From the NCBI RefSeq assembly GCF_037977235.1, contig NZ_CP150276.1, positions 3,472,001 through 3,536,000 on the forward strand: 64,000 nucleotides of DNA, in the 5' to 3' direction. Position 1 is the stretch's first letter. Each line of letters opens with the position of its first letter. Position numbers and translations under genes: made by a program. The DNA comes from Paenibacillus sp. FSL K6-0276 (lineage in GTDB: Bacteria; Bacillota; Bacilli; Paenibacillales; Paenibacillaceae). Shown here in pieces: positions 58,564 to 63,877 of the stretch. The notes beneath the pieces are model-generated. The model saw nothing but the letters and a program-made list of their open reading frames with translations, was not told where the DNA came from and did not search any database.

Positions 58564-59181
58564 CTATCCCAATTTAAACTGATTTACTAAAGCACGCATC
58601 TCATCCGAACCCTCTTGCAGCTTGCGAGCAGATGCCGCAATGTCCTTCATGGAAGCAATCTGTTCCTCAACAGCAGTAGATACAGTCTGTGCAGCCGAAG
58701 CTGTGTTCAATGAAACCTGCTCGACCTCCATCACCGCAGCAGATATTTGTTCAGAACTTGCGTACATCTGTTGTGAGGCGGACGAGGATTCTTTTACCTG
58801 ATCTACGATGGCCCGGGTGGCCTGCAAAATACGTTCAAATGCTTTACCCGTATCATCAATCGCTTGAACCCCTGCTGCGACTTCATTTTGACCTTTACTC
58901 ATGGATTGATGGGCATTTCCAATGCTCAATCTAATTTCTTCAATCATCCCAGAAACTCGCTCGGCTGCTTCACTTGTCTGGCCAGCCAATTTGCGAACTT
59001 CACTAGCAACCACTGCAAATCCTCTCCCATCTTCACCTGATCGGGCAGCTTCAATTGCCGCATTAAGCGCTAACAAGTTCGTTTGCTCAGATATTCCTTT
59101 AATGGTGCTGACAATGGTGCCTATTTGTTGAGACTGCTCATTTAGACTAGTAACGGCGATCCCTAAATCTTCAAACGTCCA
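58564..59181 (-). pseudogene. 5'-truncated methyl-accepting chemotaxis protein
   Basis: Only the cytoplasmic signalling half remains: [19 protein letters not shown], then the hairpin tip [20 protein letters not shown] and [15 protein letters not shown], down to the C-terminus. Coding similarity stops at 59181, exactly where repeat copy A begins. The sensor, membrane helices and HAMP are absent. The ATG at 59076 could start a soluble 170-residue piece, but no ribosome site supports it. Confidence 0.88.
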
Positions 59182-59505
59182 TACTGCTACTATGGCTGGG
59201 AGAGGAAGGTCGATGAACTATGGTGCCTAGAGCCCATCCGTTAGTCTGACTCCAACGACCACGGTGCATCACAGATTGTCGCTCCCTTTTGGGAAGCACT
59301 CATGGGAGATTAATCCTTTTTTGGTTGTTGCACCAGCCTTGCCTTTTTGGTTGTTATCTATATGATATTTTTTGTGCTTAAAAGATCTAACAATCTCTAT
59401 ATGATTACTCAAGAGGCTCAACCTTTTTTAAAAAGTGTTATTCGAAGTCTATTTTATTATGCTCTTTTTCAGGTTTAGAGCTAATTTAATTTTCATGGGA
59501 GTTTA
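59182..59505. repeat. Dispersed non-coding element, copy A
   Basis: 324 bp beginning TACTGCTACTATGGCTGGGA and ending TTTTCATGGGAGTT. It shares its first about 150 bp nearly identically with copies B and C and its last about 25 bp; the middle is diverged. It lacks the left GCAGCGC-AA-GCGCTGC hairpin found in the other copies. It abuts the truncated receptor on one side and the NUDIX stop codon (five bases away) on the other. Confidence 0.85.
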
Positions 59506-59509
59506 ACTT

Positions 59510-60109
59510 TTAACAAAACATTGAGGTTGAAATTACATTAGGATAGTGTTCTAGAATAATTGAAAGCATACGTAGATGTCCAAATGGTTTGAATGGTAAA
59601 TTCCCATCAATATGTTGTCCAAATATGACTTTTCCACCCAAAGTTTGGAATTCATCTAAAGTTATTGTTCCGGAGCATAGAAGAATAACTTCTTTACGAG
59701 TTAAGAGCATTAATGCTTTAGTCTCCATACTGGGTACTGGTTCGTCGTCTGATGATGCCAGGAAAATAGGAGTTATGCTTTGTACTGAATTCTGATGTCC
59801 CACAATCAATGGGCGTGGTTCAATGCTTGCATTTTGAAATTTATCAATAGGTTCCAACTCTATATCAATGTCAAACCTAGTATTGGGACAATAAAAAGTC
59901 ATTGAAGGCGTTAAAGGAGTTATTCGCATCTGAGACTCTTCAAGAACTTCACGTTGGGCACATTCCCAAGCCGTTTCAGCCCCCTCTCTATGCCCGCCAA
60001 GTCTAACAATAGCAAGTTCCGATTGATCCACAGTCGGTCCCATCATAAATGCCATTCTTTTATTGGTTAGTACAAACGCTCCAGCTTTCTGAACAACCTG
60101 ATCATTCAC
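59510..60109 (-). CDS. NUDIX hydrolase
   Basis: 199 aa. Complete NUDIX box G39-S59 (GHREGAETAWECAQREVLEE), with metal-binding Glu residues. It would hydrolyse a nucleoside-diphosphate-linked compound; the C-terminal half is unassigned. The gene lies between direct copies A and B of the dispersed element and its stop is five bases from copy A, suggesting it came or moved with them. No strong ribosome site was noted (GAGGGGC upstream). Confidence 0.9.
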   Translation of the reverse strand: MNDQVVQKAGAFVLTNKRMAFMMGPTVDQSELAIVRLGGHREGAETAWECAQREVLEESQMRITPLTPSMTFYCPNTRFDIDIELEPIDKFQNASIEPRPLIVGHQNSVQSITPIFLASSDDEPVPSMETKALMLLTRKEVILLCSGTITLDEFQTLGGKVIFGQHIDGNLPFKPFGHLRMLSIILEHYPNVISTSMFC

Positions 60110-60183
60110 CCTGCCACGCCCCTCTTTTCATTTCACAGCCTCGTGCTCCATTCTACCATAATTTGGGTTGTTATTGTCCCGTT

Positions 60184-60566
60184 ATACTGCCCGTTAGCCA
60201 TACATGCAGCGCAAGCGCTGCACCACAGATGGTGAAAATGGATCGACGAATCTGTCCTTACTGCTACTATGGCTGGGAGAGGAAGGTCGATCAACTATGG
60301 TGCCTTAGATCCCATCCGTTAGTCTGACTCCAACGACCACGGTGCATCACAGATTGTCGCTCCCTTTTGGCAAGCACTCATGGGAGATTAATCCTACTCT
60401 GGTTGCTGCACCAGCCTCATTTTTTATTTTCAGCTTTGAAAGGTCTTTGGTACTTTAATTTCATAACTCTTCTCAGGCTCAGCCTTTTTTAAAAATCATT
60501 CGGCTAGGTCTAATTTATTATTGTCTTTTTTAGGTTTTTCGCGGATTAAATTTTCATGGGAGTTGA
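60184..60566. repeat. Dispersed non-coding element, copy B
   Basis: 383 bp starting TATACTGCCCGTTAGCCATA, with the perfect stem GCAGCGC/GCGCTGC, a variable island (60241-60257), the conserved block from TACTGCTACTATGGC, and ending TTTTCATGGGAGTTGAA. Same orientation as A and C; about 95 percent alike to C by eye outside the island. No long open frame. Confidence 0.9.
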
Positions 60567-60571
60567 ACAAA

Positions 60572-60597
60572 TAAAAAACGGCTGCGAGAAGCAACCG
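60572..60597 (-). terminator. Terminator of the GNAT gene
   Basis: Stem CGGTTGC/GCAGCCG with one mismatch, then six T residues on the minus strand. The preceding TTAAGCTA...AACGATAGT belongs to a recurrent module. Confidence 0.75.
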
Positions 60598-60644
60598 CTA
60601 TTCCACTATCGTTATTAGCTTAATATCCAACTGTATTCTAGTGG

Positions 60645-61172
60645 TTATAATTTCTTTAGCATGTGAATGTCATTAGGTTCTTTTTCAAATAATTCCGAAT
60701 CAATCTCTGATGTAATAGCTGAACCATGACTAGTATAATACTTCACCGCAGATTCAGTCTCGGTAGACGATATATATAAGTACTTCGCCCCTTTTTCAAT
60801 TGCTACTGTACTCAGTGATTCCATAATAAAGCTACCGATTCCTCTTCTTCGATATTCCCGTGTCACATACATAAGGTCAATCTGAAGCCTATCATTATCA
60901 TAACCCCTCAACTTATGAGCTAAGACACCAAACCCGACCAATTTATCTCCGTCAAATGCTCCAAAAGCCGTACCACCGTTGGTGAGTTCATATTCATATC
61001 GGGATATTATCTCTAGATAAATATCTTCTTTCCATCTGGGACATTCATGTGGTGATTTTATTTCTTCAAGTACCCCGTTCTTTAATTTGTACTTCAATTT
61101 GATTGTTTCCGAACGGTCGATGTCACGAATTTTATAAGAATCATTAAGTATCATTTGAACAATTGAAACCAT
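60645..61172 (-). CDS. GNAT-family N-acetyltransferase
   Basis: 175 aa: GFGVLAHKLRGYDNDRLQID, LMYVTREYRRRGIGSFIMES (acetyl-CoA loop), YISSTETESAVKYYTSHG. Likely acetylates a small molecule or protein amine. GGGGG lies six bases before the ATG. Single-gene unit bounded by a terminator. Confidence 0.92.
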   Translation of the reverse strand: MVSIVQMILNDSYKIRDIDRSETIKLKYKLKNGVLEEIKSPHECPRWKEDIYLEIISRYEYELTNGGTAFGAFDGDKLVGFGVLAHKLRGYDNDRLQIDLMYVTREYRRRGIGSFIMESLSTVAIEKGAKYLYISSTETESAVKYYTSHGSAITSEIDSELFEKEPNDIHMLKKL

Positions 61173-61304
61173 TGCAATCCCCCTTTTTTAAAAATTCACA
61201 TTCACAATTATCAATTTAATGTTCGTTATCTGTAATATATTTTCCTTTTATTTCCTAAATCAGCCTGCCCGTTAGCGGAGCCGAAAGTATATAAATTTAA
61301 TTCA

Positions 61305-61688
61305 TTAGTTCTTAAGCCAAAATTGCACTTCATGATTAGTGAATTCATTCTTCATCAAAGTAGAAAATATCTGCTCGTTTTTAACCTCTAAAATACACTG
61401 CCTATAAACGTATTCTCTACCACCATTTTCTTCATACCACTTATTTATTCGATTTCTGTGTTCAATGTCCCCTCTAACAATCGTTTCTATTTCCTTGTAC
61501 TTTTCATAACTGTCGTACTCCCAAATAGCGAATATTTCAGTGGTTGATTCATTACTCGGTACCATCCATCTTCCAACTAGTTGAGCCCCATGTTTAATCT
61601 GATTCGGCAAATTAGTTTCATTAAAATGTGCATTAAAAATATCAACAAACTCATTTTTTACAATGTAAAACTTCCTTCTATAAAACAA
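61305..61688 (-). CDS. NIPSNAP-family protein
   Basis: About 127 aa ferredoxin-like fold protein: FYRRKFYIVKNEFVDIFNAH, LVGRWMVPSNESTTEIFAIW, YEKYKEIETIV. Function of bacterial NIPSNAPs is largely unknown; some bind small molecules. TTG 61688 (AAAGGATG ten bases upstream) fits the family's usual N-terminus better than GTG 61697, whose ribosome site is too close. TAACGGGCAG lies between its stop and the next gene. Confidence 0.85.
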   Translation of the reverse strand: MFYRRKFYIVKNEFVDIFNAHFNETNLPNQIKHGAQLVGRWMVPSNESTTEIFAIWEYDSYEKYKEIETIVRGDIEHRNRINKWYEENGGREYVYRQCILEVKNEQIFSTLMKNEFTNHEVQFWLKN

Positions 61689-61738
61689 AATCGCCACATC
61701 CTTTCTAAAGTCTTAATATAACTACTCTGTGTTTTCAG

Positions 61739-62533
61739 TCATTTTTCCTCTAGCTGGGCTACGATCACCTTAACGCCAAGTGCTTGAATTTGTTCGACTG
61801 CCTCCGGATCTGCATCCTCATCAGTAATTAACAGATCTAAATCTTCAATCCGGCCAGCTTTCGCAAACCCTTCGTTGCCAAGAGATTGGTGCGTGGCAAT
61901 TCCGATGCACCGACGGGATGCAACAGATACCGCCCGACCGAATGCCCCTACTTCAGGAGTGGCCACAAAAATCCCTTCCTCCGAGATGCCTCCTCCAGTG
62001 ACGAAGCTGACATCAAACTTAAACAGACGGATAAATTCTGTCGCTAGAACGTCAGTAATATTTCCTGACGGCTTTACCCGACCACCAATTAGGTAGGTTT
62101 CAATCCATTGTCGTTCCCTTAAAGAATCGGCTACCCGCATGCTATTTGTAACGATTGTAAGTGGCATTTGTTCAGGCAGATGCTTCAATAGCACATAAGA
62201 TAAAGATCCGCTTCCAATAAATACAGTATCGCTTTCCCGAATATACGATACAGCAAGCTTAGCAATCGCATTACCTTGCGGAGTTCCTTCGCCGTATCGG
62301 ATTTCTGGTGGAGGTGGGGCTTGTCGAACCTTCGTGGATGGAATCGCTCCGCCGTGGGTTTTCTTGAGCAATCCCTGTTCCTCCATAATGGAGAGGTCAC
62401 GCCTGATTGAATCGATGGAAACCTGGAACTTTTCCGCTAAGTCTTTGACCATTACACGTTTTTCTACATTCAATAATGCTTGGATTTTTTCCCGACGCTC
62501 TTCAGCAAACATCCCAGTGTCTTCCTTTGGCAC
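61739..62533 (-). CDS. DeoR/GlpR-family transcriptional regulator
   Basis: 264 aa: N-terminal DeoR HTH (VMVKDLAEKFQVSIDSIRRD, LSIMEEQGLLKKTHGGAI) and the DeoR C-terminal sensor fold binding phosphorylated sugars (DTVFIGSGSLSYVLLKHL, TIVTNSMRVADSL, TGGGISEEGIF). GTG start eight bases after AGGAGG. No sugar-metabolic operon is adjacent in the window, so the target is unknown. Confidence 0.93.
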   Translation of the reverse strand: MPKEDTGMFAEERREKIQALLNVEKRVMVKDLAEKFQVSIDSIRRDLSIMEEQGLLKKTHGGAIPSTKVRQAPPPPEIRYGEGTPQGNAIAKLAVSYIRESDTVFIGSGSLSYVLLKHLPEQMPLTIVTNSMRVADSLRERQWIETYLIGGRVKPSGNITDVLATEFIRLFKFDVSFVTGGGISEEGIFVATPEVGAFGRAVSVASRRCIGIATHQSLGNEGFAKAGRIEDLDLLITDEDADPEAVEQIQALGVKVIVAQLEEK

Positions 62534-62694
62534 GCATTATACCTCCTGAACATTCACTTTTCCCTTTATAACAAATCAATTATATTCATTAATATGCCGT
62601 TTTGTAAAGATTCTATTGTGAAAAACATCATTTTTATGCTGTTTTATGAAGTTTTTTTTAGTTTACAGTTCTGCTACGCAAAGATCATGTTAAA

Positions 62695-62718
62695 TAAAAA
62701 AAGACCGTCTATGCGGTC
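62695..62718 (-). terminator. Terminator downstream of repeat copy C
   Basis: Stem GACCG/CGGTC, loop CATAGA, then seven T residues on the minus strand. It would end a transcript that runs from the HAD gene through copy C. Confidence 0.75.
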
Positions 62719-62760
62719 CTTGACTTTTTTGACCTATTGATTGCACCAAATTCATTCAAC

Positions 62761-63142
62761 TATACTGCCCGTTGGCCATACATGCAGCGCAAGCGCTGCA
62801 CCACAAATAATGAAAATGGTCATCTCTGTTAATACTGCTACTATGGCTGGGAGAGGAAGGTCGATCAACTATAGTGCCTTAGAGCCCATCCGTTAGTCTG
62901 ACTCCAACGACCACGGTGCATCACAGATTGTCGCTCCCTTTTGGGAAGCACTCATGGGAGATTAATCCTACTCTCGTTGCTGCACCAGCCTCATTTTTTA
63001 TTTTCAGCTATGAAAGGTCTTTGGTACTTTAATTTCATAACTCTTCTCAGGCTCAGCCTTTTTTTAAAAATCATTCGGCTAGGTCTAATTTATTTTTGTC
63101 TTTTTGAGGTTTTTCGCGGATTTAATTTTCATGGGAGTTGAA
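62761..63142. repeat. Dispersed non-coding element, copy C
   Basis: 382 bp, same layout and orientation as copy B, from TATACTGCCCGTTGGCCATA to TTTTCATGGGAGTTGAA. Its variable island is shorter (62820-62832). Ends eight bases from the stop codon of the HAD gene, just as copy A ends next to the NUDIX stop. Confidence 0.9.
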
Positions 63143-63149
63143 AAACATT

Positions 63150-63695
63150 TTACTTCATGATGATCCATTTAACAGCATCTGATAAATCCTCTGCTATGTA
63201 ATCTGGCACAGCTTCAAGCCATTCTCCGAAGAATTGATTACTACGATATTTAGCCATATCCTTTTCTCCCGAACCCGTCTTCACCAAAACTTTCATACAT
63301 CCTGCCCTTTGAGCCGCAATCATATCCGTCCATCTATCACCAATAACAACGCAATTCTTCAACTTCAGACCATACTCTAGCGCTGCTTGAATAAGCATGT
63401 CTGGCGAGGGCTTTCGACAGGTACATCCCTCTCCATGTTGGTGTGGGCAAATAAAAGCTTTGTCAAAACCAAACGAAGTGAGTTCATCCTGGAAATCATC
63501 AAACTGCGCATCTCCACGAGATACTCCAGGTTGATTTGTAAACGAAAAGATTAGTATATCGGCATTCTTCAATGTTCTCAAAGAATCGGTAGTGAATGGA
63601 AATAATTCAAATGATCCAGGAAAAATAACTTCTTCTGAACCACCAATTGTTCCATCCCTATCAATGAAAACGGCTTGTATTTCCGAAGTTGTCAT
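63150..63695 (-). CDS. HAD-superfamily phosphatase (HAD-IIIA, GmhB-like)
   Basis: 181 aa: nucleophile motif FIDRDGT (D12/D14), FSFTNQPGVSRG (motif II), a Cys/His cluster CPHQHGEGCTCRKP that binds zinc in GmhB/HisB-N proteins, and VIGDRWTDMIAAQRAG (motif IV). It likely dephosphorylates a sugar- or amino-alcohol phosphate. GGGGGTG precedes the ATG. Its stop is eight bases from repeat copy C. Confidence 0.92.
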   Translation of the reverse strand: MTTSEIQAVFIDRDGTIGGSEEVIFPGSFELFPFTTDSLRTLKNADILIFSFTNQPGVSRGDAQFDDFQDELTSFGFDKAFICPHQHGEGCTCRKPSPDMLIQAALEYGLKLKNCVVIGDRWTDMIAAQRAGCMKVLVKTGSGEKDMAKYRSNQFFGEWLEAVPDYIAEDLSDAVKWIIMK

Positions 63696-63799
63696 TTAAC
63701 AACACCCCCCAATCCATTATATTTCATTGGATCTACAAATAATTATCATTTTTCCATCAATAAATCGGATGGCACTAAACTGCCCGTTACTTCAGCAAA

Positions 63800-63829
63800 C
63801 AAAAAGGAGCTGCCTCCAAGCAAGCTCCT
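63800..63829 (-). terminator. Terminator of the partial right-edge gene
   Basis: Stem AGGAGCT/AGCTCCT with an 11-base loop, then five T residues on the minus strand. Flanked by the TTAAGCTA...GGGAACGATAGTT and TAACGGGCAG module arms. Confidence 0.8.
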
Positions 63830-63877
63830 CAACTATCGTTCCCTGATAGCTTAATGAACCGATTTTTATAGATACGC

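Follow-up and report, generated by a model that had tools for sequence, protein, structure and literature searches.

Repeats in Paenibacillus sp. FSL K6-0276 as probable non-autonomous IS110-family elements that keep a predicted bridge RNA gene

Results and Discussion

Three direct repeats (copies A, B and C) near the right end of a 64,000-nucleotide stretch of the genome of Paenibacillus sp. FSL K6-0276 (NZ_CP150276.1, positions 3,472,001 to 3,536,000, here called the window) are very probably non-autonomous derivatives of an IS110-family insertion sequence (IS), which have kept both ends and the predicted bridge RNA gene of the left end and have lost the transposase gene. This reading is built on direct observations, namely the borders of the elements, the target at which they sit, relatives that have the same ends and bear a transposase, and the covariation between the guides of the RNA and the flanks. 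Copies B (60198..60562, plus strand) and C (62776..63137, plus strand) are intact bridge-RNA-only mini-elements of 365 bp and 362 bp, flanked by CTGCCCGTTAG and TTGAAC and by CTGCCCGTTGG and TTGAAA, respectively. Copy A (59182..59501, plus strand) is a mini-element truncated on the left, which lacks the first ~58 bp and retains the bridge-RNA core and the right end. The block identity between the three is 92–96% in the left part and the core and 76–95% in the right part. The initial annotation had already described three direct copies at these places, the stems GCAGCGC/GCGCTGC and GCTCCC-TTTT-GGGAAGC and the lack of terminal inverted repeats, and we could confirm each of these: both stems are present, no inverted repeats were found among the copies in the window region searched, and by inspection only CATG is common to both ends. 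Its copy boundaries are slightly too wide, as TATACTGCCCGTTAG on the left and TTGAA on the right belong to the target sequence and not to the element. The truncated left border of copy A is adjoined by a fragment of a methyl-accepting chemotaxis gene (58564-59181, PF00015), suggesting a deletion that took part of this gene together with part of the copy. The left core dinucleotide of copy C (62774-62775) reads GG instead of AG, perhaps due to a mutation after insertion.

Using copy C as query against the whole 6.11-Mb genome we found 42 matching places, with matches down to 1e-181 that exclude chance; only three copies had been seen before because the remaining ones lie outside the window. The matches cluster near 0.96–0.98, 1.35, 2.88, 3.29 and 3.53–3.63 Mb, with uniform orientation of the copies inside each of these five clusters, and single copies are found in addition. 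Several matches cover the left ~240 bp only, with the right end following ~1.1–1.6 kb further on. A search of the genome and its relatives for full-length versions with a transposase, as had been proposed, was successful: in this same genome full-length copies of 1532–1586 bp (1586 bp for the full element in the cluster labelled A) carry transposase open reading frames of 387–411 amino acids between the same ends. The encoded protein matches Pfam PF01548 and PF02371, scores 286 bits against the NF033542 model ‘IS110 family RNA-guided transposase’ (cut-off 140) and aligns by sequence with PDB chains of the transposases of IS621 and ISCro4, the structure of the IS621 enzyme being known. Thus the DEDD (RuvC-like) transposase with PF01548 and PF02371 that characterizes the IS110 family is encoded by the full-length copies and is absent from the copies in the window. 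The copies of 360–385 bp share the left ~216–228 bp with the full element at 79–94% identity as well as a similar right end and lack its reading frame; since the ends are shared and the reading frame is gone, we regard them as non-autonomous derivatives. With copies counted by searches and in retrieved genome stretches, and each tier by the element ends in the retrieved regions, there are roughly five copies with a transposase, some of which have deletions, 21 intact copies of 359–385 bp with the bridge RNA only, and 11 ends-only copies, ten of them 61–63 bp and one 92 bp in length. Among the 61–63 bp copies (L015:19905, L017:4780 and others) some end with CATGGTAG and not with CATGGGAG, and these are probably tied to a second IS110 subfamily. 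Full-length and bridge-RNA-only copies are both present among twenty loci of congeners, bridge-RNA-only copies occurring in at least five other species. From 254 stretches encoding relatives of the transposase 80 were retained, which belong to genera of the Bacillales and to unnamed Bacillota/Bacillaceae.

The elements are inserted at CCCGTT-AG, one half of intergenic sites that resemble attC. Their left flanks are CTGCCCGTTAG or TCGTTNCCCGTTAG with small variations, the right flanks TTGAA, TTCAA, CTTAA and similar. As removal of the element rejoins the flanks to CCCGTT-AG-YTNAA, the shared core is read as AG, and this single AG joining the flanks means that there is no target duplication beyond a short core. 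For copy B8085 the joined flanks are 100% identical over 71 bp to an unoccupied paralogous site. The target half-sites are parts of an intergenic structure in which two simple sites surround a hairpin, resembling attC. In the window the left half-target of copy B, CTGCCCGTTAG, lies at 60187..60197 (plus strand) with the core AG at its end, an unoccupied half-site CTGCCCGTTA is located between accessory genes at 61265..61274 (plus strand), and an unoccupied full attC-like site (CTGCCCGTTACTTCA, hairpin, CAACTATCGTTCCCTGATAG) is found at 63780..63851 (plus strand).

A region of ~230 nt upstream of the transposase gene is conserved in the relatives and corresponds to the long non-coding end of IS110 elements with its predicted RNA. 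Its core is located at 59208..59336 in copy A, 60285..60414 in copy B and 62859..62988 in copy C, always on the plus strand. There a target loop (stem GGTCG/CGACC) holding the guides g2 and g3 is followed by a donor loop (stem GGTGCA/TGCACC) holding g4, as can be seen in copy B. Guide g2 is the reverse complement of the core and the right flank and reads ATCAACTA in copy C (62864..62871, plus strand), where covariation identifies it as complementary to the top strand of the right flank (TAGTTGA). It has the same letters in copy B (60290-60297, plus strand), is ATGAACTA in copy A (59213-59220, plus strand) and ATAAGCTA in another subfamily. Guide g3 (CCGTTAG; 62890..62896 in C, 60316-60322 in B and 59238-59244 in A, plus strand) has the letters of the left flank as far as the core and is complementary to the bottom strand of this flank, again in line with covariation, so that both target strands are addressed. 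The donor guide g4 (CATGGGAG; 62953..62960 in C, 60379-60386 in B and 59301-59308 in A, plus strand) has the same letters as the right end of the element itself, and the two change together (GGGAG/GGTAG). An RNA on the minus strand is less probable, as only the plus strand has all candidate guides ending at the core as in IS621.

The strongest argument for a bridge-type RNA, for which IS110 had been named as a precedent, comes from the covariation between guides and flanks among 77 relatives, assessed by tests of 20,000 shuffles that ignore shared ancestry. Between left flank and g3, 351 of 355 bases match at 71 loci (shuffle mean 296, observed value reached by 0 of 20,000), and even when reduced to 13 unique pairs 61 of 65 bases match with no shuffle as good. 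The left-flank variants CCTAT, CCTTT, CAGTT, CATTT, GCGTT, AGGTT and CCCGC appear on both flank and guide, and paired changes are seen for CCTATAG guides with the target CCCTATAG, CCTTTAG with CCCTTTAG, CATTTAG with CCATTTAG, CCCGCAG with TCCCGCAG, and flanks of the form AG|GAGTCT with GAGACTCCT guides. Guide g2 and the right flank match in 193 of 315 bases against a shuffle mean of 158 (0 of 20,000 as good; 22 of 20,000 for unique pairs), and right end and g4 agree in 501 of 504 bases. The subfamilies within this genome covary as well: of 15 copies with AAGCT guides 13 have AG|C flanks, and of 10 copies with AACT guides 9 have AG|T (13:2 versus 1:9, Fisher p = 0.0002). Together with the conservation of the loops and the known biology of the family, this covariation supports the existence of an RNA. 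Among the 21 mini-elements the two RNA loops have a mean identity of 0.93 and 0.90, compared with 0.64 in the middle of the element and 0.74 in a variable island of 13–17 bases. This island, noticed in the initial annotation, is therefore real, whereas its proposed role as a guide loop had to be rejected: it sits on the 5′ side of the RNA core, its variation does not visibly follow that of the flanks, and the real guides (ATCAACT, CCGTTAG and CATGGGAG) are all found within the conserved core. The island is read as a loosely conserved spacer upstream of the RNA, which separates the terminal hairpin from the RNA core.

Several observations weigh against our interpretation. Shared ancestry could contribute to the shuffle results; the unique-pair test for g4 is not significant because g4 hardly varies; and the match between g2 and the flank is partial in many copies, with the unique-pair shuffle for g2 within this genome not being significant (6192 of 20,000), so that this point depends on the wider set of relatives and on the Fisher test for the base directly following the core. 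Covariation of the stems, proposed earlier as a check, could be found only to a slight extent: in the consensus fold of 46 sequences, double changes occur in 2 of 30 pairs, and changes are mostly one-sided with pairing kept, leaving the argument to the guide–target covariation. Single-sequence folding energies are not clearly below those of shuffled sequences (z −1.0 to 0.8), and CTATGGCT, a candidate for the left-donor guide, fits the left end in this genome but shows no covariation in the relatives. In the IS110 family the RNA is driven by a promoter reconstituted in the circular intermediate; here the promoter-like score at the predicted circle junction is weak (8–9 of 12, not at one position). 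Copy number may also grow via cassette or homologous recombination.

From these data we infer that the RNA would be transcribed, that a circular intermediate would form and that the elements would be mobilised in trans and still be active. In the proposed mechanism the target loop of the bridge RNA would read the flanks via g2 and g3 while g4 in the donor loop matches the right end of the element, and a transposase supplied in trans by the full-length copies would cut and exchange strands at the AG core. The circular intermediate would carry the TTTTCATGGGAG-CCATACATG end junction. Insertion would take place at the AG of the target CCCGTTAG|TTGAAC, placing the element always in one orientation at the CCCGTT-AG-YTNAA half-sites that form part of the attC-like sites separating the cassette-like genes. 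It is unlikely, although worth considering, that the repeats are dead deletion remnants of IS110, immobile since the loss of the transposase and multiplied by cassette or homologous recombination. The copies indeed lie in cassette-like arrays able to shuffle and duplicate, and some are truncated, but 21 intact copies of 359–385 bp have both ends exact and sit in both half-sites (CTGCCCGTTAG and TCGTTNCCCGTTAG), these intact copies have unrelated genes as neighbours and also stand alone outside the arrays, occupied as well as empty paralogous sites exist and similar mini-elements are present in at least five other species. Much less probable still is that the array uses the 380-bp unit as its attC-like recombination site, in the manner of the VCR repeats in Vibrio: although small genes are found on either side of the repeats, which mostly have the same orientation and lie 5–9 bases from stop codons, the array has its own shorter site, which is present without the unit, and the unit interrupts one half of it; the empty sites and the full-length IS copies with the same ends already contradict this idea. 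A cellular structured non-coding RNA or 3′ untranslated region element with no link to transposition, to which the conserved core, the hairpins and the lack of a credible Rfam match (chance matches only at 58–64 kb of the window) might point, is the least probable explanation and already contradicted, since RNA core and both ends are common to full-length IS110 copies and guide–flank covariation would not be expected. The initial annotation's view of mobile-element derivatives that keep a structured RNA thus holds, the parent being an IS110-family element with its transposase gene in the same genome; the findings it had named as speaking against such a view, among them the lack of any association with a transposase, did not turn up.

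The elements are embedded in what resembles a gene-cassette array (60187-63851 of the window and G000:C1:3530000-3634000), with small, mostly minus-strand genes between attC-like sites that are composed of a CTGCCCGTTAG half-site, a hairpin and a CTATCGTTnCCCGTTAG half-site (R1-hairpin-R2). Such paired simple sites around a hairpin between genes of the same strand are typical for integron attC sites. The small genes near the right end of the window include GNAT, NIPSNAP, DeoR and HAD. Inside the array two XerC/D-like tyrosine recombinases of 280 amino acids and 83% identity are encoded on the minus strand (G000:C1:3551446-3552285 and 3630592-3631431, equal to L016:11443-12285 and L020:10589-11431). 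They are not IntI-type integrases, scoring 98.8 and 90.8 bits against the TIGR02249 cut-off of 265, and their best matches are the XerC, XerD and XerA models, also below cut-off; judged by sequence they are candidates for the recombinase of the array. Of 100 genomes of the genus, 27 have relatives of them, several of these being fragments only, with a half-site near the recombinase gene in most of eight inspected loci, and the half-site CTGCCCGTTAGYT reaches 78 copies in one congener compared with 0–2 for a reversed control. Complete integrons have been reported as extremely rare in Bacillota (PMC9024848). The same array contains at least three further, different IS110-family transposases (L016:539-1804, L016:5116-6417 and L016:10059-11261), which suggests that it is a hotspot for this family.

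We tentatively propose a wider picture, which we hold with clearly less confidence than the assignment of the repeats themselves, of an RNA-guided parasitism in three tiers: autonomous IS110 elements, bridge-RNA-only elements with their own guides and a borrowed transposase, and ends-only elements of 61–92 bp that borrow both. All of them would exploit the recombination sites of a Paenibacillus cassette system that resembles an integron and is operated not by IntI but by a XerC/D-like recombinase, and their RNA would combine the upstream position of the IS110 type with the guide order of the IS1111 type. If the mini-elements do move in trans, nature already employs bridge RNAs separately from the transposase gene that belongs to them, and the sets of guides present in single genomes (ATCAACT, ATGAACT and ATAAGCT), matched to different target variants, would represent a natural retargeting series with which guide rules could be tested. 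The compact relatives that carry a transposase, and whose ends and targets are known, are candidate systems for RNA-guided insertion in Gram-positive bacteria, and the target sites indicate a cassette system in Bacillota.

Comparison with known systems

The IS110 family and its bridge RNA are already known; in the open-licence literature searched, non-autonomous elements keeping the bridge RNA were not found. As in the IS621/IS110 group (PMC11208160), there is a DEDD/PF02371 transposase with a long non-coding left end upstream of it, a predicted two-loop RNA with target and donor guides ending in the core dinucleotide and no long inverted repeats. Unlike in that group, the window copies have no transposase, the core is AG in our reading, a donor guide could be assigned to the right end only and the order of the target guides is inverted, the 5′ guide reading the top strand of the right flank. 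Instead of the IS621/ISEc21-type order (bottom-strand match 5′ of top-strand match), g2 is located 5′ of g3, which agrees with what is reported for IS1111 and is the reverse of the order in ISEc21 (PMC11187229). As the guide order is a feature of subtypes, we place the elements in the IS110 family only when this is taken in its wide sense.

The RNA is located upstream of the transposase gene in the IS621/IS110 group and downstream in IS1111 (PMC11208160, PMC11187229). Among the latter, the IS1111-attC group with ISKpn4 and ISPst6 targets integron attC sites (PMC11187229 and works cited there), and our elements resemble this group in their fixed position in attC-type sites and in having the top-strand match 5′ of the bottom-strand match. 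They differ from it in the conserved RNA core lying upstream of the transposase gene, in the absence of long subterminal inverted repeats (no inverted pair in the window region, compared with 7–17 bp in IS1111), in their occurrence in Bacillales and in a target that is not a canonical IntI attC site. In Coxiella, QMITE2 (PMC5896051) is likewise a small repeat tied to an IS110/IS1111-family element and to small RNAs; unlike the repeats described here it is a target of IS1111 insertion, is not reported as a derivative and has terminal inverted and direct repeats.

Bridge RNA is functional in trans with a donor of 22 bp (PMC11208160), and a mini-IS with short ends becomes mobile once seekRNA and transposase are supplied (PMC11187229), making mobilisation of the bridge-RNA-only and ends-only copies plausible. 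The mini-IS of ISEc21, a laboratory construct with ends of 29 and 16 bp that was mobilised in trans (PMC11187229), shows that short ends suffice when RNA and transposase are given, and the ends-only elements of 61–92 bp, known here as natural repeats from their sequence, may be seen as its natural parallel.
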